IMG/VR virus record: IMGVR_UViG_3300033153_002448
Span: 1 to 36,713 of that record
Origin: a virus
DNA: 36,713 nucleotides
Direction: 5' to 3' (one strand)
The position numbers were made by a program, and so were the translations under genes. Below are positions 11,107 through 36,713 of the stretch, one piece after another (positions within the stretch are counted from its first letter, which is position 1; each line of letters starts with the position of its first letter). Under the pieces are notes generated by a model. It did not search any database and had not been told where the DNA came from. It saw only the letters and a program-made list of their open reading frames with translations.

Positions 11107-11637
11107 CTACGGGAAAGTTGCTGGTTTTTCTGTACGATACAGTTCTCCGTCTCCAGAGAAATCCACATCTAATGTTACATAATCTTCATTAGGTGTTGAC
11201 ATATCAATTGAACCCAAAATTATTTTCCCTAACCAATATTGTGCTGGTTCTGTGTCATCTGTAGGAGCGTCGTTAGTTTTACTGTTGATGAACATTACCC
11301 ACAAGCTTACGCCTGCTTTCATTTCAGTAAAGATTGTATCATTAGTTGTGTCAAGGTATCCTGACATGCTTCCTGACCAATCCATATAAAGTCTAGCCTT
11401 GCCTACCCAAGCGTCTGCTGGGTCTTCAACGAATACTTTATGTTCTGCAATATCTACTGAAATACTTATTGAAAACTCATTTCTTTCTGGAAACTGAACC
11501 CAGTTATAATTCGTTGGGTAATCTGTATCCCATACTAGAGTATCTGTACTCCATTTAGGTAGTTCGCAGGTTTCTCCCGATGCGTCTGTATCTGAAACAA
11601 ACAAAATATCGGCATCAATTCCTATAATAGCTGCCAT
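11107..11637 (-). CDS. Major tail (tube) protein, undecorated paralog C (176 aa)
   Basis: The last and shortest of three tandem paralogs. All begin MAAIIGIDADILFV and share the block FPERNEFSIS...DTTND and GSIDMSTPNEDYVTLDVDFSG. This copy has only a short loop where the other two carry an 80-residue Gly-rich insert. Position just before the chaperones and tape measure gene, and size, fit a tail tube subunit. It is the only paralog with a late-type promoter directly upstream (11725-11739) and a terminator directly downstream, so it can be transcribed as a single gene. I infer it is the main tube subunit. Many codons differ from the other copies while the protein is nearly unchanged. Confidence 0.85.
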   Translation of the reverse strand: MAAIIGIDADILFVSDTDASGETCELPKWSTDTLVWDTDYPTNYNWVQFPERNEFSISISVDIAEHKVFVEDPADAWVGKARLYMDWSGSMSGYLDTTNDTIFTEMKAGVSLWVMFINSKTNDAPTDDTEPAQYWLGKIILGSIDMSTPNEDYVTLDVDFSGDGELYRTEKPATFP

Positions 11638-11676
11638 GTTTTTATCTCCTGTTAATAGTTTGTCCTATAAACCCTC

Positions 11677-11712
11677 CTAAATGATTACAACCTCTACACA
11701 GTTCTCAGTCAT
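11677..11712 (-). CDS. Possible 11-residue leader peptide before the major tail protein
   Basis: In the leader between the 11725-11739 promoter element and the tail protein, ATG at 11710-11712 opens MTENCVEVVII and stops at 11677-11679. The stop overlaps a TTTAGGAGG sequence that could be a ribosome binding site. A weak purine-rich stretch precedes the ATG. It may be a translated leader or chance. Confidence 0.2.
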   Translation of the reverse strand: MTENCVEVVII

Positions 11713-11724
11713 TTTTCTTCTCTC

Positions 11725-11739
11725 ATTAACTATAATCAT
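11725..11739 (-). promoter_or_regulatory. Phage-specific late-type promoter element, site 1
   Basis: The minus strand reads ATGATTATAGTTAAT, identical to three other sites in the window except for one A/T position. No -35-like hexamer is shared upstream. It lies 88 bp before the start of tail protein paralog C. Twelve bases of it, with flank (11733-11744), are repeated inverted at 11676-11687. Confidence 0.7.
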
Positions 11740-11760
11740 TTAGGTATACTAGTAGTGAAA

Positions 11761-12546
11761 CTAGTAAGGCATTTCGGAACGGTACAATTGTCCACTACCA
11801 GAGAAGTCTACGTCAAGTGTAACGTAGTCCTCATTAGGAGTTGACATGTCGATTGAGCCTAGAATAATCTGCCCAAGCCAATACTGCGCTGGCGCAAAAT
11901 CATCTGTAGGTGCATCATTTGTTTTGCTGTTTACAAACATTGCCCAAATATCTTCTCCTGCTTTCATCTCTGTAAAAATTTCATCATTAGTTGTGTCTAG
12001 GTAACCACTCATACTACCAGACCAGTCCATGTAAAGTCTAGCTTTACCAACCCATGCGTCAGCGGGGTCTTCTACAAATACTTTATGCTCGGCAATATCA
12101 ACTGAGATAGAAATTGAAAATTCATTTCTCTCAGGAAATAATGTCCAAGAATAAGTACTATCATTTACTAACACTGTCCACTCTGTGTCGTCTGTACTCC
12201 AAGGTGGTAGAACCAAAGAGTTAATTGTTAAAGTATCAATTGTAAGACCTGTACCACCTGCTGGTGATACTGTTGTTGCCATTGCATCATCCCCTATTAC
12301 ATATCCAGAACCAACTTCAATTCTGGTAATACTATCAGGAACGCCAGCAGTTGCTAACATTGAAAAAGTAGCTGCTACGTCTTGGCTTGCTCCGCCAGTT
12401 ACGGTGATTACGTCACCAGTATCATTATAGCCAGAACCTGCCACAGCAATACCAGCTGTTGCAATACCACCTTGTAGTGTCTCTGCATCTACTGTACTTT
12501 TCTTTACGAACAGGATGTCAGCATCTATACCGATTATTGCTGCCAT
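11761..12546 (-). CDS. Major tail protein paralog B with inserted Gly-rich domain (261 aa)
   Basis: Same fold signature as paralogs A and C (MAAIIGIDADILFV at the start; FPERNEFSIS block; GSIDMSTPNEDYVTLDVDFSG near the end). Residues about 25-105 are an insert absent from C: GGIATAGIAVAGSGYNDTGD, then VTGGASQDVAATF, then VGSGYVIGDDAMATT. The first 39 bases are nearly identical to those of paralog A, whereas the rest has many silent differences. It sits 28 bp after paralog A, with no promoter seen between them, so it probably depends on transcription from upstream. I infer a tail-tube subunit carrying a surface domain; decorated tube subunits are known from lambda gpV and SPP1 gp17.1*. Confidence 0.8.
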   Translation of the reverse strand: MAAIIGIDADILFVKKSTVDAETLQGGIATAGIAVAGSGYNDTGDVITVTGGASQDVAATFSMLATAGVPDSITRIEVGSGYVIGDDAMATTVSPAGGTGLTIDTLTINSLVLPPWSTDDTEWTVLVNDSTYSWTLFPERNEFSISISVDIAEHKVFVEDPADAWVGKARLYMDWSGSMSGYLDTTNDEIFTEMKAGEDIWAMFVNSKTNDAPTDDFAPAQYWLGQIILGSIDMSTPNEDYVTLDVDFSGSGQLYRSEMPY

Positions 12547-12574
12547 ATTATTTACTCCTATTTACTAAGTTTTA

Positions 12575-13372
12575 TTACGTCTGTACGCCAGAGCCATAAG
12601 GCATCTCTGAGCGATACAGTTGACCACTTCCAGAAAAGTCAACATCCAATGTCACATAGTCTTCGTTAGGGGTTGACATATCAATAGAACCTAATATAAC
12701 TTTTCCTAACCAATACTGTGTTGGTGTTTCGTCGTCGTTTGGTGCATCATTTGTTTTACTATTAATGAAGATTACCCATAGGTCATCTCCAGATTTCATG
12801 CTTACAAAGATTGTATCATTAGTTGTGTCCAAGTAACCAGACATTGAGCCTGACCAGTCCATATACAACCTTGCTTTTCCTACCCACGCATCTGCTGGGT
12901 CTTCCACGAATACTTTGTGTTCCGCAATGTCCACCGAGATGGAAATACTAAACTCATTTCTTTCAGGGAATTGTACCCAAGAATACGAAGCATCATCTAC
13001 TAGTACTGTCCACTCTGTATCATTTGTGCTCCAGATTGGTAAGCATAGTGGGCTGATTGTATCAACATCAATTGTAAATGCATCATCACCACTACCTGTA
13101 ATCTTTGTGGTAGCAATACCTGTATCTGATGTTTGATACCCAGACCCTGGATTTGTAATTACAAATGACGTAACTGCGCCAGTTCCTGTGCATGTTAAAA
13201 TTGCTGGATAATCTACTGCTGCTCCACCAGTTACACTAACGGTATCACCGTCTGCGTAGCTAGCACCACCTACTGCAATTGAAGCAGTAGCAATTCCGCC
13301 TTTTGTAATAGCACTTATTGTATCGTTTGCAACGAATAGGATGTCAGCATCTATACCGATTATTGCTGCCAT
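12575..13372 (-). CDS. Major tail protein paralog A with inserted Gly-rich domain (265 aa)
   Basis: First of the three tandem tail protein genes. It has the conserved start MAAIIGIDADILFV, an insert at residues about 24-107 (GGIATASIAVGGASYADGD; VTGGAAVDYPAIL; NPGSGYQTSDTG), and the common core. It ends with a short extra tail, YGSGVQT. Its ribosome binding site AGGAG lies inside the end of the preceding gene, which it overlaps by 13 bp, suggesting coupling. Its insert is clearly homologous to that of paralog B, so the domain was probably acquired before A and B separated, or was copied between them. Confidence 0.8.
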   Translation of the reverse strand: MAAIIGIDADILFVANDTISAITKGGIATASIAVGGASYADGDTVSVTGGAAVDYPAILTCTGTGAVTSFVITNPGSGYQTSDTGIATTKITGSGDDAFTIDVDTISPLCLPIWSTNDTEWTVLVDDASYSWVQFPERNEFSISISVDIAEHKVFVEDPADAWVGKARLYMDWSGSMSGYLDTTNDTIFVSMKSGDDLWVIFINSKTNDAPNDDETPTQYWLGKVILGSIDMSTPNEDYVTLDVDFSGSGQLYRSEMPYGSGVQT

Positions 13373-30378: not shown

Positions 30379-30943
30379 TGATTACTTTGAGCTTGAGTTA
30401 CTAGACGGAAGAACACTCCGTTGGAAGAACTTTGGTCAAGTAGTTACTGTTGATAATCTGGATGCAAGAAAGTTACGCATTGGAACTAGCGGAGCTGTCT
30501 TGAACAAAGAGGATTTCGAAGCTATTACAGAAATAAATTTCGAGTGGCTTATAAATGCACAAGAGTTTGGATATGGTAAAGAAGAGAGCTACATAAATCT
30601 TACTTTTCCAAGAGACTGGATTGAAATTAAGTTGCACGCCAAGTATGATACAAGAGACGAAGAATACCCAGAGAGAGACTACTTCTATTGGATAAATGAA
30701 TATATTTTATTTGGTGAGTATGTGAAGAGATTGAATGTTACAGAAGATAAAGCCATTGACTACTTATTGAATTGGAGAAGACCTAAACTAAAAACAAATG
30801 GTTCTATTCAAGCAGTCGTGTATCATAATGGGACACCTGTCTACGTAGGTATGCTTGACAATGAGAAAAAGAAAGCTTGTGTTGATTCATTCTTTAGATT
30901 AATTTATGGAATACAGCTACACGGAGAAGATAATGTACGATAA
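30371..30943 (+). CDS. Unassigned early protein (190 aa)
   Basis: The ATG at 30371 is chosen because AGAAGGA lies 4-5 bases upstream; the frame is open further to 30329. The protein has strand-rich parts (FELELLDGRTLRWKNFGQVV; SIQAVVYHNGTPVYVGMLDN) and an aromatic acidic centre (EEYPERDYFYWINEYILFGE). No family is recognised. It overlaps its neighbours by 8 and 11 bp and directly precedes the primase, so a role near replication is plausible. Confidence 0.6.
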   Translation: MYDDYFELELLDGRTLRWKNFGQVVTVDNLDARKLRIGTSGAVLNKEDFEAITEINFEWLINAQEFGYGKEESYINLTFPRDWIEIKLHAKYDTRDEEYPERDYFYWINEYILFGEYVKRLNVTEDKAIDYLLNWRRPKLKTNGSIQAVVYHNGTPVYVGMLDNEKKKACVDSFFRLIYGIQLHGEDNVR

Positions 30944-32630
30944 GAAAGATGTTATCAAGATAAACTTATCACAAGTAGTTCAAGCACTAGGTATACAATT
31001 AGAAGACAAAGGAAACTATAGGACAGCTCAATGTCCTTATCACAATGATGAGCACGCTTCGTTCATTGTTTACGATAACCTTGATAAAAGTATTCAAGGC
31101 ATCTGGCAATGTTTTACGTGCGGTGTGCGTGGAGATTCAATTGACCTTGTTATGAAAGAAAAGAAACTTACCTTCTCTGAGGCTGTTGATTGGATTGGTG
31201 AAACATTTGACTTGACCAAAACTCCGCTAACACCAGAGCAAGCTAGGATGTATGCTCTTAGGGCGGAGATTGCCCCAATATTAGTGGAAGCTAACAGATG
31301 GTTCAGAGAGCAAAAAAATGAGTGGTTCTTTGAGTATCTAGATGGGCGTAGTTTTAGCGAACAGACTATTAAAGAATTTGATTTTGGATACGCACCAAAC
31401 AGTGTTATTGAACTAAAGAAACACTTGTATGACAAAGGATTCACAGACGAGCAGTTGGTTGGTTCTGGTCTATTTGTTAATAAACCAAGTGGAGTAGAGC
31501 CTGTGTTCTATGGCAGGCTGATGATTCCCATAAAAGACAAGTCGAGCAACATTGTTGGATTTGCTGGAAGAACGCAAAATCAATATGATACATCAAAATA
31601 CATTACAACAACAGCTGTCTTTACAAAGAAATCTAAAGTAGCTTATGGACTTAACCGTGTACGTGCTAGCAAATTACCTGTAACTAAACTATACATTACA
31701 GAAGGAAACCTAGATGTTCCTAAGCTAATGCAGAACACAGATGAGAAAGCTGTGTCTGTTATGGGGACTTCAATAACACACGCACATATAAAAGAAATCT
31801 GTGCTTCACTTCCAGACCTTAATACAATTGTCATAGCTCTTGATGGAGATGATGCTGGTAGGTCTGGTGTAAAAAAGTTTGTTGATAAGGTATATAGTTC
31901 TGAGGAGTTTACATATAAAAAGAAAATAGACTTCTATGTATTTGATACCCCAGATGGGGAAGACATAGATAGTTTGGTAACAGATAATGTTGAAGAGTTC
32001 CATAAACTTAGTAAAGAACTTACGCATGTTATTGACTACACTATCAAAGCTCTTAGAGAAGAGTTCGATAAAGAAGATAAAACCAAGAACGATAAGTACG
32101 TTGCTAAGTGCTTAGAGATTATTGCATCTGTGGAACAGTTCAGAGTTTCTGGGTTCATTGTTAGACTGGCAGAGTTATCTGGCTATAATATTGATAGGCT
32201 AAGAAAAGAACTGTACGTATACAGAATAAGGCAAAGAAACATTACTAAAGAACTATATGAAAAGAAAGTTCTTAGATATTTAGTAGATAACATGGACGAC
32301 CTGCCTATTATAGAAACAGAACTAGGTATGCCGTTGTCTAAGGTATTGTCAGAGCGTGGTCAAAAGATTTTGATGGGAGACTTCGCTAAGTATGCAACTA
32401 AGTTACTGTATGTTTCAGTACTAGACACAGAAGAAATTAACTACGACGATGCTGTTTTCTTTGGGCTACTGTTAGTGGCTTCTAATATATTTGAACTTAT
32501 GATTGAGTATGAGAACCTGTCACCAGAAGCAACAAGACAGATAAATAAAAAGACAGACAATGCAGTAACTGGTGTAGATGAGATGTATAAAAACATAATG
32601 AAAAACATTATTAGGAGAATTGATGGGTAA
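30933..32630 (+). CDS. DnaG-type DNA primase (565 aa)
   Basis: The N-terminal zinc-binding domain is CPYHNDEHASF with Cys 34, His 37, Cys 60 and Cys 63 (WQCFTCGVRGDSIDLV). The catalytic core follows with YGRLMIPIKDKSSNIVGFAG and the TOPRIM motifs LYITEGNLDV (Glu 257) and VIALDGDDAGRSG (acids 304-307). The C-terminal 230 residues are helical, like the helicase-binding domain. It makes RNA primers for lagging-strand synthesis and normally acts with a replicative helicase, which is not in this window. The start at 30933 has GGAGAAG upstream and overlaps the previous gene by 11 bp. Confidence 0.93.
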   Translation: MYDKKDVIKINLSQVVQALGIQLEDKGNYRTAQCPYHNDEHASFIVYDNLDKSIQGIWQCFTCGVRGDSIDLVMKEKKLTFSEAVDWIGETFDLTKTPLTPEQARMYALRAEIAPILVEANRWFREQKNEWFFEYLDGRSFSEQTIKEFDFGYAPNSVIELKKHLYDKGFTDEQLVGSGLFVNKPSGVEPVFYGRLMIPIKDKSSNIVGFAGRTQNQYDTSKYITTTAVFTKKSKVAYGLNRVRASKLPVTKLYITEGNLDVPKLMQNTDEKAVSVMGTSITHAHIKEICASLPDLNTIVIALDGDDAGRSGVKKFVDKVYSSEEFTYKKKIDFYVFDTPDGEDIDSLVTDNVEEFHKLSKELTHVIDYTIKALREEFDKEDKTKNDKYVAKCLEIIASVEQFRVSGFIVRLAELSGYNIDRLRKELYVYRIRQRNITKELYEKKVLRYLVDNMDDLPIIETELGMPLSKVLSERGQKILMGDFAKYATKLLYVSVLDTEEINYDDAVFFGLLLVASNIFELMIEYENLSPEATRQINKKTDNAVTGVDEMYKNIMKNIIRRIDG

Positions 32631-32943
32631 CACACAAGCGATACTGAAAAAGATGAGAGAGCTTATCAACCAACCTTGTTGGTCAAAGTCTTGGGAATTA
32701 TACGATGAGCTTGAACAAATCCTCACCGCACAAGAGGGAACTAGAACGCATGTGACTAGCCCTGCAAGTTATCCCACATCAGTTTTACAGAAAGAATTGA
32801 AACGTAGAAATATCCTCACCGCCCAAGAGGTGAAGTTACCAAAGGGAAAACCCTCAACTATGGAAGATATAGTAATGGAATACCCCGCCCCACCGAAGGA
32901 AGGTAAATATGTGGGCAGTTGTGTGGATTGGGAGAAGGAGTGA
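32623..32943 (+). CDS. Small protein with repeated TAQE and PPKE boxes, copy 1 (106 aa)
   Basis: The ATG at 32623 follows AGGAG with a 5-base gap and overlaps the primase end. Three boxes stand out: ILTAQEG, ILTAQEV and YPAPPKEG. The same three boxes, in the same order and frame, occur in the next gene, although the sequences between them (here ELINQPCWSKSWELYDELEQ and HVTSPASYPTSVLQKELKRR) are unrelated. The box DNA uses GC-rich codons (CTC ACC GCC CAA GAG) in an AT-rich gene. The function is unknown. Confidence 0.6.
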   Translation: MGNTQAILKKMRELINQPCWSKSWELYDELEQILTAQEGTRTHVTSPASYPTSVLQKELKRRNILTAQEVKLPKGKPSTMEDIVMEYPAPPKEGKYVGSCVDWEKE

Positions 32944-33119
32944 GTAATGAATAAACGCACGATACTGAAAGAGTTGCCAGTAATGACAGACAGTGATGGT
33001 AGAGAGTTCTACTGGAAAGATGATGTTGAGTATGTCCTCACCGCCCAAGAGAAAATACACTATAGTAAACTAGCTAATGCAATTCTAAACGCTCCGCTAG
33101 ACTTCACCGCCCAAGAGGG
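32719..33119 (+). repeat. Four dispersed TAQE-box repeats (about 18 bp each)
   Basis: Near-identical copies of CTCACCGCCCAAGAGG start at about 32719, 32812, 33034 and 33100. All lie in the same reading frame, encoding LTAQE, LTAQE, LTAQE and FTAQE. Their GC-rich codons contrast with the surroundings, so the conservation looks like DNA- or RNA-level constraint, or recent spreading, not only protein-level. Confidence 0.8.
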
Positions 33120-33250
33120 AGAGGGTGATGTTAGTAAACTTATGACCAACTTTATGAAGGAGTACACCCACACACCAAGTCAGGCTATATTTGGAATCAA
33201 CTTTACACGATGGGTGCACCAGCAACCACTCCCAACCCCACCGAAGGAAG
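32888..33250 (+). repeat. Two copies of a 15-bp PPKE-box repeat
   Basis: CCCCACCGAAGGAAG is identical at 32888-32902 and 33236-33250, encoding the PPKE ends of two neighbouring small proteins. The GAAGGAAG part of the second copy also sits where the ribosome binding site of the RNase H gene should be. Confidence 0.8.
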
Positions 33251-33258
33251 ATGAATGA
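32947..33258 (+). CDS. Small protein with repeated TAQE and PPKE boxes, copy 2 (103 aa)
   Basis: It starts at ATG 32947 behind AAGGAG. It contains YVLTAQEKI, DFTAQEGEG and a C-terminal PTPPKEDE, the same three boxes as the preceding gene but with different sequence between them (VMTDSDGREFYWKDDVEY; GDVSKLMTNFMKEYTHTPSQ). Length is almost the same. The stop overlaps the RNase H start (ATGA). The two genes may be an old duplication with only the boxes kept, or unrelated genes into which the boxes were inserted. The function is unknown. Confidence 0.6.
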   Translation: MNKRTILKELPVMTDSDGREFYWKDDVEYVLTAQEKIHYSKLANAILNAPLDFTAQEGEGDVSKLMTNFMKEYTHTPSQAIFGINFTRWVHQQPLPTPPKEDE

Positions 33259-33743
33259 TGACTAAGAAAGAACTAGTAGACCACGTTGATGTGTGGGCAG
33301 ATGGAAGTATCCGAGGAAACCCTGACGGTGCTGGAGGACTTGGAATATTCGTAGAGAGTAAGAGACTAAACTTTGTTAAAGCTATAGGAATATACGTTCC
33401 AGAAAGGGACGGTAACACAAATAATAGAATGGAACTGACTGCTGCAATAGAGGCTTTGAAAGCTCCAAAAGATGTACCACTAGTAGTTAATATGTACCTA
33501 GATAGTATGTATGTTATAGGCGGAATCAGGGCAAAGGGCTATCAGTCTAACGTAGACCTATGGCGAAAGTTTTTTAGTGTTCTCAGGTCAAGAGACTACT
33601 ACCTAAATGTAAAACACGTTAAGGGACACAGCGGTGTTAGCCGAAATACAGTAGTAGACAGACTAGCTAACTTAGCTAGAGAGAAAGAATCAAATGTAGA
33701 GTTTGTTGGTCATTCAGAAGAAATTATAAAAAGGTTTAGCTAA
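33255..33743 (+). CDS. rnhA: Ribonuclease HI (162 aa)
   Basis: All RNase HI catalytic positions are visible: Asp 16 in VWADGSIRGNP, Glu 60 in NNRMELTAAIEAL, Asp 83 in MYLDSMYVI, His 125 in KHVKGHSG, and Asp 135 in NTVVDRLANLA. It degrades RNA in RNA-DNA hybrids, which fits removal of primers made by the primase encoded two genes upstream. Length matches the family. It overlaps the preceding small gene by 4 bp. ATG at 33255 or the next codon at 33258 could be used. Confidence 0.93.
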   Translation: MMTKKELVDHVDVWADGSIRGNPDGAGGLGIFVESKRLNFVKAIGIYVPERDGNTNNRMELTAAIEALKAPKDVPLVVNMYLDSMYVIGGIRAKGYQSNVDLWRKFFSVLRSRDYYLNVKHVKGHSGVSRNTVVDRLANLAREKESNVEFVGHSEEIIKRFS

Positions 33744-35137: not shown

Positions 35138-35210
35138 ACTTGTGTAGCTCAACGGACAGAGCAGTAGGTTCTTACCCTATTGGTTGGAGGTTCGAATCCT
35201 CTCACAAGTA
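35138..35210 (+). tRNA. tRNA-Lys(CTT)
   Basis: A full cloverleaf: acceptor ACTTGTG/CACAAGT, D-arm GCTC...GAGC, anticodon loop TTCTTAC (anticodon CTT), T-arm with TTCGAAT, discriminator A. No CCA is encoded, so the host must add it. An 11-base piece of its 5' part (TGTGTAGCTCA) is repeated 18 bp upstream at 35123-35133, perhaps a remnant of a duplication. Confidence 0.92.
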
Positions 35211-35212
35211 CT

Positions 35213-35578
35213 ATGAAAAATAAAAATGAGTATATGAATAAGTACGTTACTGAAAAGTATAAGAAAAGAAGAATAGATATTATTTCATATCTTGGTGGAG
35301 CGTGTGTTGTTTGTGGGGCTAGGCATCTACTAGAAATAGACCACATAAATCCAAACACAAAAGAATTTGCAATAGCCAAAAGATTAGCTGGCATTGCAGA
35401 GGATAAGCTATGGCAAGAGGTAGACAAATGCCAACTGCTTTGTAGGAAACACCATATTGAAAAATCTATTAGAGAAGGTTCTTTCAATGATATAGCAAGA
35501 GAAATGATTTGTGAATGTGATAGAATATTTGACAGTATTAAAGCTTATGCAGGACACAAAAGATGGTGTAAAGAATAA
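35213..35578 (+). CDS. HNH endonuclease directly after tRNA-Lys (121 aa)
   Basis: The HNH fold is clear: ACVVCGARHLLEIDHINPNT gives the first cysteine pair and the DH motif, and CQLLCRKHHIEKS gives the second cysteine pair and the final His. The N-terminus is basic (KNKNEYMNKYVTEKYKKRR). The frame extends upstream into the tRNA, so the first ATG outside it, 35213, is chosen, only 2 bp after the tRNA; the ATG at 35234 is another option. No good ribosome site is seen for either. Free-standing HNH genes next to phage tRNAs are often homing elements; that is inference here. Confidence 0.8.
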   Translation: MKNKNEYMNKYVTEKYKKRRIDIISYLGGACVVCGARHLLEIDHINPNTKEFAIAKRLAGIAEDKLWQEVDKCQLLCRKHHIEKSIREGSFNDIAREMICECDRIFDSIKAYAGHKRWCKE

Positions 35579-35582
35579 ATTA

Positions 35583-35654
35583 CCTTTCTAAGCATAGATA
35601 GCGATGCTCTGGTCTTTTAAACCAGATAGGTCGGCGCAAGTCCGGCAGGGGGGA
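35583..35654 (+). tRNA. Atypical tRNA-Lys(TTT)
   Basis: It folds as a cloverleaf: acceptor CCTTTCT with AGGGGGG (three G-U pairs), D-stem GCAT/ATGC, anticodon stem CTGGT/ACCAG with loop CTTTTAA (anticodon TTT), and T-stem GTCGG/CCGGC. Unusual points are the T-loop CGCAAGT in place of the standard TTC-type loop, A at position 8 in place of T, and a D-loop without the GG pair. The acceptor 3' strand AGGGGGG also sits where a ribosome binding site for the next gene is expected. It could be a divergent tRNA or a tRNA-like element. Confidence 0.55.
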
Positions 35655-35656
35655 CT

Positions 35657-36202
35657 ATGGAGAAGAGAATGAAGAAGAGAGAGAGAAAGTTTTGGTTAAC
35701 AACCGATACCCACTTAGGTCACGCAAAGATGCACACCTTCTGCGACAGACCGGAAGAATTTGAATGGAAGGTTCTTAAGGGGTTTGAGGTACTACACGAA
35801 GAAGACATACTTATCCACTTAGGAGACTTTGCGTTTACTGATGATGAGTATTGGGCAGAGAAATTCTTTGAACATGTCCCGTGCAAGGCGTGGTTACTAA
35901 AAGGAAATCACGATAAGAGAAGTGACTTCTGGTACTTAGACAAAGGGTTTAGTTTTGTTGGTCGTTCTTTAACATTGAAAAGATTTGGATATAAAATACT
36001 ATTCTCACATATGCCACAAGAATGGCACGGTCAGTTTGATTTGAATTTGTTTGGACATTTTCATAATAATGACCACAGATTTTGGGAGACTTGGTTAGTA
36101 AACAGAATAACCCCTGAATACCACCAGCTCTTAGCCCTAGAAGATATGGACTACAAACCCTTACGTCTGAAAAATATTGTTGAGGAGCACAGAGGGGTGT
36201 GA
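35657..36202 (+). CDS. Calcineurin-like metallophosphoesterase (181 aa)
   Basis: The metal-binding motifs are in order: TTDTHLGH (Asp 17, His 19), LGDFAF (Asp 57), KGNHDK (Asn 84, His 85), FSHMP (His 118) and FGHFHNN (His 134, His 136). This small single-domain type occurs in many phages and bacteria; the substrate is unknown. Possible roles include hydrolysis of a nucleotide or of RNA/DNA ends. The start at 35657 or the downstream ATG 35669 (behind GGAG) could be used. Its last codons overlap the 5' end of the next tRNA. Confidence 0.85.
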   Translation: MEKRMKKRERKFWLTTDTHLGHAKMHTFCDRPEEFEWKVLKGFEVLHEEDILIHLGDFAFTDDEYWAEKFFEHVPCKAWLLKGNHDKRSDFWYLDKGFSFVGRSLTLKRFGYKILFSHMPQEWHGQFDLNLFGHFHNNDHRFWETWLVNRITPEYHQLLALEDMDYKPLRLKNIVEEHRGV

Positions 36203-36272
36203 GATAACGTGAGCTGGGGCTTGCAGTAGACTCCAAACCTACGTCTTGAGGGTTCGATTCCCCACACCTCTG
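36191..36272 (+). tRNA. Atypical tRNA-Trp(CCA)
   Basis: The anticodon loop CTCCAAA (anticodon CCA) and discriminator G match bacterial tRNA-Trp. T-loop TTCGATT is standard. The acceptor AGAGGGG/CACCTCT has one G-A mismatch, the T-stem pairs fully only if one A is bulged (TG-A-GGG with CCCCA), and the D-arm is unusually long. The 82-nt length is above normal. It overlaps the stop of the phosphoesterase gene. Either a divergent functional tRNA or a decaying one. Confidence 0.6.
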
Positions 36273-36373
36273 CCTAAGTAGTTTATGACCTAGAAATAGG
36301 CAGTTGCTGGTTCTACTATAAAAGAAATCAGCTATGGTTTTATGCAAACCGTTTCCATATAAAAAACGGAACA
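36273..36373. other. Structured spacer between tRNA genes
   Basis: Contains CCTA-GAAA-TAGG with a tetraloop (about 36291-36302), enclosed by AGTAG and CTACT, and two further small hairpins (GGTTT/AAACC and CCGTTT/AAACGG). I see no tRNA or ORF. It may contain processing signals. Confidence 0.3.
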
Positions 36374-36446
36374 TTCCCAAGTAGTTCAACGGTAGAACGC
36401 TTGCCTGTTAAGCATGAAGTTGGTGGTTCGAATCCACCCTTGGGAG
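36374..36446 (+). tRNA. tRNA-Asn(GTT)
   Basis: Acceptor TCCCAAG/CTTGGGA, D-stem GTTC/GAAC, anticodon loop CTGTTAA (GTT), T-arm GGTGG/CCACC with TTCGAAT, discriminator G. One mismatch in the anticodon stem. No encoded CCA. Confidence 0.92.
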
Positions 36447-36616
36447 CTAGTACAGGTACGTAACTGTACAGGACTGTGCCTGTAAAGGGTGGTAAGAGAA
36501 ATGAATGTCGCACATTCGCCACGCTAAACCTTACATACGCAGGAAGCCATAGTCCGACATGCCTTAAACGTAAGCAGGGACGCTAGCCTGTGGTTCGATG
36601 TAAACTTCCCCTTCAT
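36447..36616. other. Spacer with overlapping hairpins, no gene recognised
   Basis: GTACAG/CTGTAC and ACAGG/CCTGT (36449-36484) overlap and are mutually exclusive. Further on, GAATGT-CGC-ACATTC (about 36503-36517) is enclosed by GTGG and CCAC. I looked for a further tRNA and did not find a convincing cloverleaf. Confidence 0.3.
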
Positions 36617-36689
36617 GCCCCTATAGTGTAAAGGATTACCACGCAAAGCTACGAACTTTGAGATGTAGATTCGAATTCTACTGGGGGTA
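36617..36689 (+). tRNA. tRNA-Arg(ACG)
   Basis: Acceptor GCCCCTA/TGGGGGT (G-U pairs included), anticodon stem CAAAG/CTTTG with loop CTACGAA (ACG), T-arm GTAGA/TCTAC with TTCGAAT, discriminator A. The D-stem has three clear pairs. No encoded CCA. Confidence 0.88.
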
Positions 36690-36713
36690 CTTGGGACAGG
36701 CGGTGAAACGTAA

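Follow-up and report, generated by a model that had tools for sequence, protein, structure and literature searches.

Two small phage genes sharing short DNA boxes

How do two neighbouring phage genes come to share a few short, nearly identical stretches of DNA when the coding sequence between these stretches differs? Small genes without relatives abound in phages, and the origin of new ones is poorly known. The gene pair w1/w2 lies on a 36,713-nt viral contig (IMG/VR record IMGVR_UViG_3300033153_002448; this whole stretch of DNA is called the window) between a primase gene and an RNase H gene. The pair, its boxes and its neighbours are as follows.

30906..32630, + strand: DnaG-type primase gene, upstream of w1 (Pfam DNAG_N, E 3.7e-25)
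32623..32943, + strand: w1 (gene 1), 106 aa, MGNTQAILKK-V1-LTAQE-V2-LTAQE-V3-PAPPKEG-tail
32629..32652, + strand: N-box of w1, AACACACAAGCGATACTGAAAAAG, protein NTQAILKK, core CAAGCGATACT
32721..32737, + strand: TAQE box 1 of w1, CCTCACCGCACAAGAGG
32814..32830, + strand: TAQE box 2 of w1, CCTCACCGCCCAAGAGG
32884..32904, + strand: PPKE box of w1, ending in AAGGAAGGT
32947..33258, + strand: w2 (gene 2), 103 aa, MNKRTILKE-V1-LTAQE-V2-FTAQE-V3-PTPPKEDE
32960..32973, + strand: N-box of w2, CGATACTGAAAGAG, protein RTILKE
33036..33052, + strand: TAQE box 1 of w2, CCTCACCGCCCAAGAGA
33102..33118, + strand: TAQE box 2 of w2, CTTCACCGCCCAAGAGG (FTAQE)
33232..33260, + strand: PPKE box of w2 with the linker AAGGAAGATGAATGATG, serving the RNase H gene as Shine-Dalgarno and start region
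33258..33743, + strand: RNase H gene, downstream of w2 (Pfam RNase_H, E 5.2e-21; an alternative start at 33255 is possible)

The start of w1 overlaps the primase stop codon (ATGGGTAA). At the other end of the pair, the second PPKE box closes w2 and doubles as the Shine-Dalgarno region for RNase H (AAGGAAG..ATGAATGATG). Neither w1 nor w2 had a significant match among Pfam, PHROGs, NCBIfam and PADLOC models (best, Pfam AIP3, E 0.18), and a profile search of solved structures gave nothing below E 0.3.

The first-pass annotation of the window had reported TAQE, TAQE and PPKE boxes in the same order in both tandem genes, with nearly identical DNA and GC-rich codons, and each of these observations was reproduced. 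The TAQE box CTCACCGCMCAAGAGG was found in four copies (at 32722, 32815, 33037 and 33103), each on the + strand and read in one common codon frame, and the PPKE box CCCCACCGAAGGAAG in two exact copies (at 32888 and 33236); both were absent from the rest of the window. With up to three mismatches allowed, the TAQE box had four matches against 0.08 expected and the PPKE box three against 0.43. As none of 100 shuffles reached either count, the recurrence of the boxes exceeds chance. The box codons CTC, ACC and GCC make up 2% of the Leu, 8% of the Thr and 7% of the Ala codons of this AT-rich phage. It had also been claimed that everything between the boxes differs. That is true of the interiors in w1, w2 and the whole family described below, but a third shared box had been overlooked: CGATACTGAAA follows the start in both w1 (32639, encoding QAIL) and w2 (32960, encoding RTIL).

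Other features of the window were noted in passing. Three tandem paralogous genes at 11107-13372 all start with MAAIIGIDADILFV, and in the part they have in common their DNA is 73-77% identical. Close together, at 1594-1789 and 1807-1910, a 98-nt and a 52-nt stretch are each duplicated in tandem almost perfectly; these could reflect the assembly or recent duplication events. Genes for tRNA Lys, Asn and Arg lie at 35138-36690, and Rfam gave a further tRNA match at 35583-35654, absent from the ARAGORN list. The Rfam scan had no match at the box genes.

Box genes in two otherwise unrelated contigs

We searched IMG/VR for genes with the same plan, QAIL followed by TAQE and often by PPKE. Among the matches listed, this plan was found in only two other contigs, G001 and G002, giving a family of eight genes on three contigs. 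G001 came from a scan for the 14-base TAQE core TCACCGCCCAAGAG, again among the matches listed; its locus (L027) was picked out among loci screened for clustered copies of this core. It has three adjacent genes (g1a, g1b and g1c) that start with NQAIL or KQAIL and bear TAQE or TSQE. G002 (locus L122) was added by a two-box pattern, and a search of the whole contig then gave three dispersed members, A, B and C. G002 is probably a complete genome because it ends in a 114-bp direct terminal repeat (L130 1-114 and L133 5883-5996); A, B and C would therefore lie within about 11 kb across the junction.

The window phage, G001 and G002 are otherwise unrelated, their best shared proteins being 21-33% identical when the box genes are set aside. 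With lenient scoring, the box genes were the top DNA match in each of the three contig pairs: 69.6% over 138 nt between the window and G002 (E 1.9e-8), 68% over 128 nt between G001 and G002 (E 1.1e-6), and a match with E 0.005 between the window and G001. At the protein level, w1 and g1c showed some similarity (42% over 36 aa, E 5e-5). The N-box of w1 is near-identical in A, B and C, and the likeness of its first TAQE box to B and C reaches upstream across CTTGAACAA.

Within IMG/VR, no further member came from scans with the N-box, with a longer TAQE pattern or with a degenerate pattern that accepted any codon for most box residues. Across some 85,000 prokaryote genomes the combined pattern matched five times, never in a gene of this plan. 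Phage and plasmid collections gave no relative, and single-protein searches with w1 and w2 found none either; since the scans require exact patterns, diverged members could be missed. Several candidates were set aside. Two loci with multiple copies of TCACCGCCCAAGAG (L103 and L060) have unrelated contexts, a TAQE scan match (L149) is GC-rich and unrelated, and both matches in a Bacillota sample of 398 genomes fall in GC-rich unrelated genes. A Photobacterium plasmid match, LEQMFTAQE, is isolated and lacks an N-box; we took it as chance.

Conservation of the boxes at the nucleotide level

The first-pass annotation had named two outcomes that would count against it, namely relatives in which the boxes are kept only as protein with free codon change, and relatives without the boxes. 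Neither was seen: the boxes are present in G001 and G002, and their rare codons are fixed there. Among the 11 TAQE copies, Leu is CTC in 10/10 cases (2-5% of synonymous codons in each phage), Thr is ACC in 10/10 (8-12% in each phage) and Glu is GAG in 11/11 (29-41% usage), while the Ala of QAIL is GCG in 8/8 (4-11% usage). Copies within one phage may share recent ancestry, so we also counted one copy per phage. From the product of each phage's own usage, the probability of CTC, ACC, GAG, GCG, ATA and CAA all being retained in the other two phages was about 4e-10.

In the boxes, silent sites were no more variable than replacement sites. Of the variable sites in the 15-nt TAQE core, three fall at first and two at third codon positions, with none at second positions, hence no excess of silent change. 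The base preceding the core, a third codon position, is C in 10 of 11 copies although the amino acid is variable, and in the N-box of w2 two residues are changed while CGATACTGAAA is retained. The boxes are not merely frozen, since silent variation does occur at some positions (GCA/GCC, CTG/CTA/CTT). All 11 TAQE and nine QAIL/RTIL boxes are in frame within the one gene family. Read from these letters, conservation of the boxes is at the nucleotide level.

Unrelated segments between the boxes

We then compared the interiors. Over 210 cross-gene segment pairs the mean z was 0.11, with no detectable similarity. For segments between the N-box and the TAQE box (V1-V1) a first test gave a mean DNA z of 1.22. 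After trimming this was 0.66, against 0.52 for a control with reversed codon order and 0.04 for other segments. As the trimmed value is close to the control we claim no residual homology, and the apparent similarity of the first interiors was dropped. No interior segment was common to two genes among the eight genes on three contigs.

As the earlier annotation had proposed to check, the number of boxes varies among relatives, and so does their arrangement. There are two TAQE boxes in w1, w2 and g1a and one in g1b, g1c, A, B and C; g1c has an additional QAIL box near its C-terminus; and PPKE or PPNE is present in w1, w2, A and B only. CxxC zinc-ribbon-like segments lie directly behind TAQE in A and C, and A gave weak zinc-ribbon matches in a family-model search.

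Base composition and probable lateral acquisition

The gene pair forms an island of raised GC content.

32623..33258, + strand: GC island of w1 and w2, 44.2% against 39.1% for the phage, a value reached by 0.6% of same-size windows

Similar islands were found in the other contigs. The G001 block has 44.7% GC (reached by 0.1% of windows), G002 gene A up to its PPNE box 45.7% (1.2% of windows) and gene B 44.2% (1.3% of windows); gene C is a weak island (41.4%, 11.5% of windows). The interiors also have raised GC3, which in the eight genes exceeds that of 9/10, 9/10, 13/14, 14/14, 14/14, 48/49, 47/49 and 49/49 other small genes of the same phage. Together the islands and the raised GC3 point to lateral acquisition of the box genes.

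Gene A of G002 is GC-rich up to PPNE and not beyond. B ends in ...AAAGGAAGGTGAATGATGGTTTAC where A reads ...AAACGAGGGTATGGTTTAC, which suggests that A is fused to a downstream gene by way of a small deletion. In G001, a GC-rich stretch (L134 19658-20000, on to G001 20093) lies behind the box genes and ends at the linker AAGGAAGGTGAGTGATGAATAA; just past this linker, at G001:20094, GC falls abruptly to 27%. Within the stretch lie two reading frames, one small and CxxC-containing, the other GC-rich, and it looks like part of the same foreign block.

Comparison with known systems

Four kinds of repeated or boundary DNA resemble the boxes in part. The Start-Associated Sequences (SAS/ESAS) of cluster K mycobacteriophages comprise a 13-bp motif of the GGGATAGGAGCCC type that precedes the start codon by 3-7 bp, outside the reading frame, with many sites per genome (PMC3203893). 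Like the boxes, they are short, asymmetric, repeated motifs that came to light through nucleotide comparison; they mark the starts of small non-structural genes in phages and mostly share one orientation. The boxes differ in lying inside the reading frame, also mid-gene and 3', in having few sites and in being common to otherwise unrelated phages; the N-box lies behind the start codon and has a different sequence. PARCELs are tandem 25-residue amphipathic repeats with dyad-symmetric DNA (PMC2996958). They are likewise repeated coding sequence with nucleotide-level features, a patchy distribution and inferred lateral spread and shuffling, whereas the boxes encode 5-8 residues, are non-palindromic and are separated by variable unrelated segments, at a spacing of 66-222 nt.

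The integron cassettes (CALINs) of phages carry attC with GTTRRRY core sites outside the gene (PMC9892861). They too are small gene units bounded by conserved DNA, but the boxes lie inside the gene and lack GTTRRRY. Cassette borders carry paired GTTRRRY and RYYYAAC core sites; between 32591 and 33280 we found one stray GTTRRRY, at 33025 inside w2, and no RYYYAAC. A diversity-generating retroelement has a near-identical template repeat of its variable region elsewhere in the genome, and a self-comparison of the three contigs gave no second copy of any interior segment. Conserved boundary sequences, as cited in one paper, are short conserved DNA flanking non-homologous phage segments and are proposed sites of homologous recombination (PMC3029335). 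Near-identical short DNA flanks non-homologous segments here as well. Boundary sequences are proposed for junctions of mosaic modules, whereas the boxes also split single small genes. By analogy, the boxes may work most like boundary sequences, but inside genes.

Possible explanations for the boxes

The annotation had offered three options for the boxes: mobile micro-elements, RNA-level signals, or joints for swapping protein segments. The last fits best because the boxes are near-identical, the segments between them unrelated and the box number variable, and we tentatively favour it as quite possible. In this proposal the genes are a laterally moving family of small phage genes, and the boxes are recombination joints. 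Its members lie among or near replication genes and share a constant plan: an N-box close to the start, a single TAQE box or two, and in many cases a PPKE box at the 3' end that is able to supply the following gene with its ribosome site. Given a 5' overlap with the upstream stop and a 3' Shine-Dalgarno, both visible in the window, copies could join an operon and leave translation unbroken. Copies that meet might then recombine at the boxes by short-homology exchange, with the aid of recombinases from the phage or its host; among the genes of the window phage is one for a RecA-family protein. The boxes would stay near-identical because they are the sites of recombination between copies, and the segments between them would in consequence be replaced. 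The products would probably be small accessory early proteins. The box plan in eight genes of three otherwise unrelated contigs, with rare codons fixed, argues for the joints, but no exchange event was caught, and we found no empty site or close relative; copies inside one contig may moreover be non-independent in this sample of eight genes. As to free mobile elements, the boxes are not free-standing. Since they are always in frame within one gene family, the whole gene is the better candidate for a mobile unit, and its lateral movement is supported by the GC and GC3 islands and the patchy occurrence.

Nucleotide conservation alone would fit a regulatory site equally well. In this main rival, which we judge rather unlikely, the boxes are functional sites in mRNA or DNA, such as binding sites for phage or host regulators, or translation control by rare codons and Shine-Dalgarno-like runs; selection keeps their letters and the rest of the gene drifts freely. 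Conservation without excess silent change, the N-box directly behind the start codon and the purine runs AAGAGG and AAGGAAG are all as expected of such sites, and the SAS of cluster K mycobacteriophages set a precedent, as short motifs recur there where small phage genes start (PMC3203893). The purine run of the PPKE box plausibly serves as a ribosome site where some members end (w2 and G002 gene B). However, a pure DNA or RNA site need not be in frame, as every TAQE and QAIL/RTIL box is. The idea of an RNA hairpin proved weak: there was no covariation, only a 3-5 bp CCUC/GAGG hairpin was predicted, and whole segments folded no better than shuffles (z 0.19, 0.30). We consider it unlikely that the genes are an ordinary fast-evolving protein family with QAIL, TAQE and PPKE motifs from a recent GC-rich donor, whose codons persist unameliorated in the boxes. 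Raised GC and GC3 in the interiors, the similarity of w1 to g1c and the constant frame speak for such a family. After a recent transfer, however, one would expect the interiors to align at silent sites, which is not the case; after an old one, silent box sites should have drifted, which the retention chance given above opposes. In the TAQE core, moreover, replacement differences are no less common than silent ones. Interiors and boxes would thus need very different ages, which disfavours the donor-codon account. Chance resemblance or an assembly artefact seems barely credible. Although the family is in only three contigs, no shuffle yields as many boxes, the gene plan recurs in separate contigs with different neighbours, and the cross-contig matches exclude such an origin for practical purposes.

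A more far-reaching form of the recombination-joint proposal, which we regard as improbable, is a gene-assembly system that would place unrelated coding segments between constant N-, TAQE- and PPKE-boxes and whose genes would spread among unrelated phages. New small proteins would arise in this way while the start, the frame and the ribosome site of the next gene were preserved. If the boxes are regulatory sites, they would represent an undescribed control system common to unrelated phages. If instead constant DNA boxes hold an exchanged remainder, they would provide a concrete and testable route to new small proteins inside operons.
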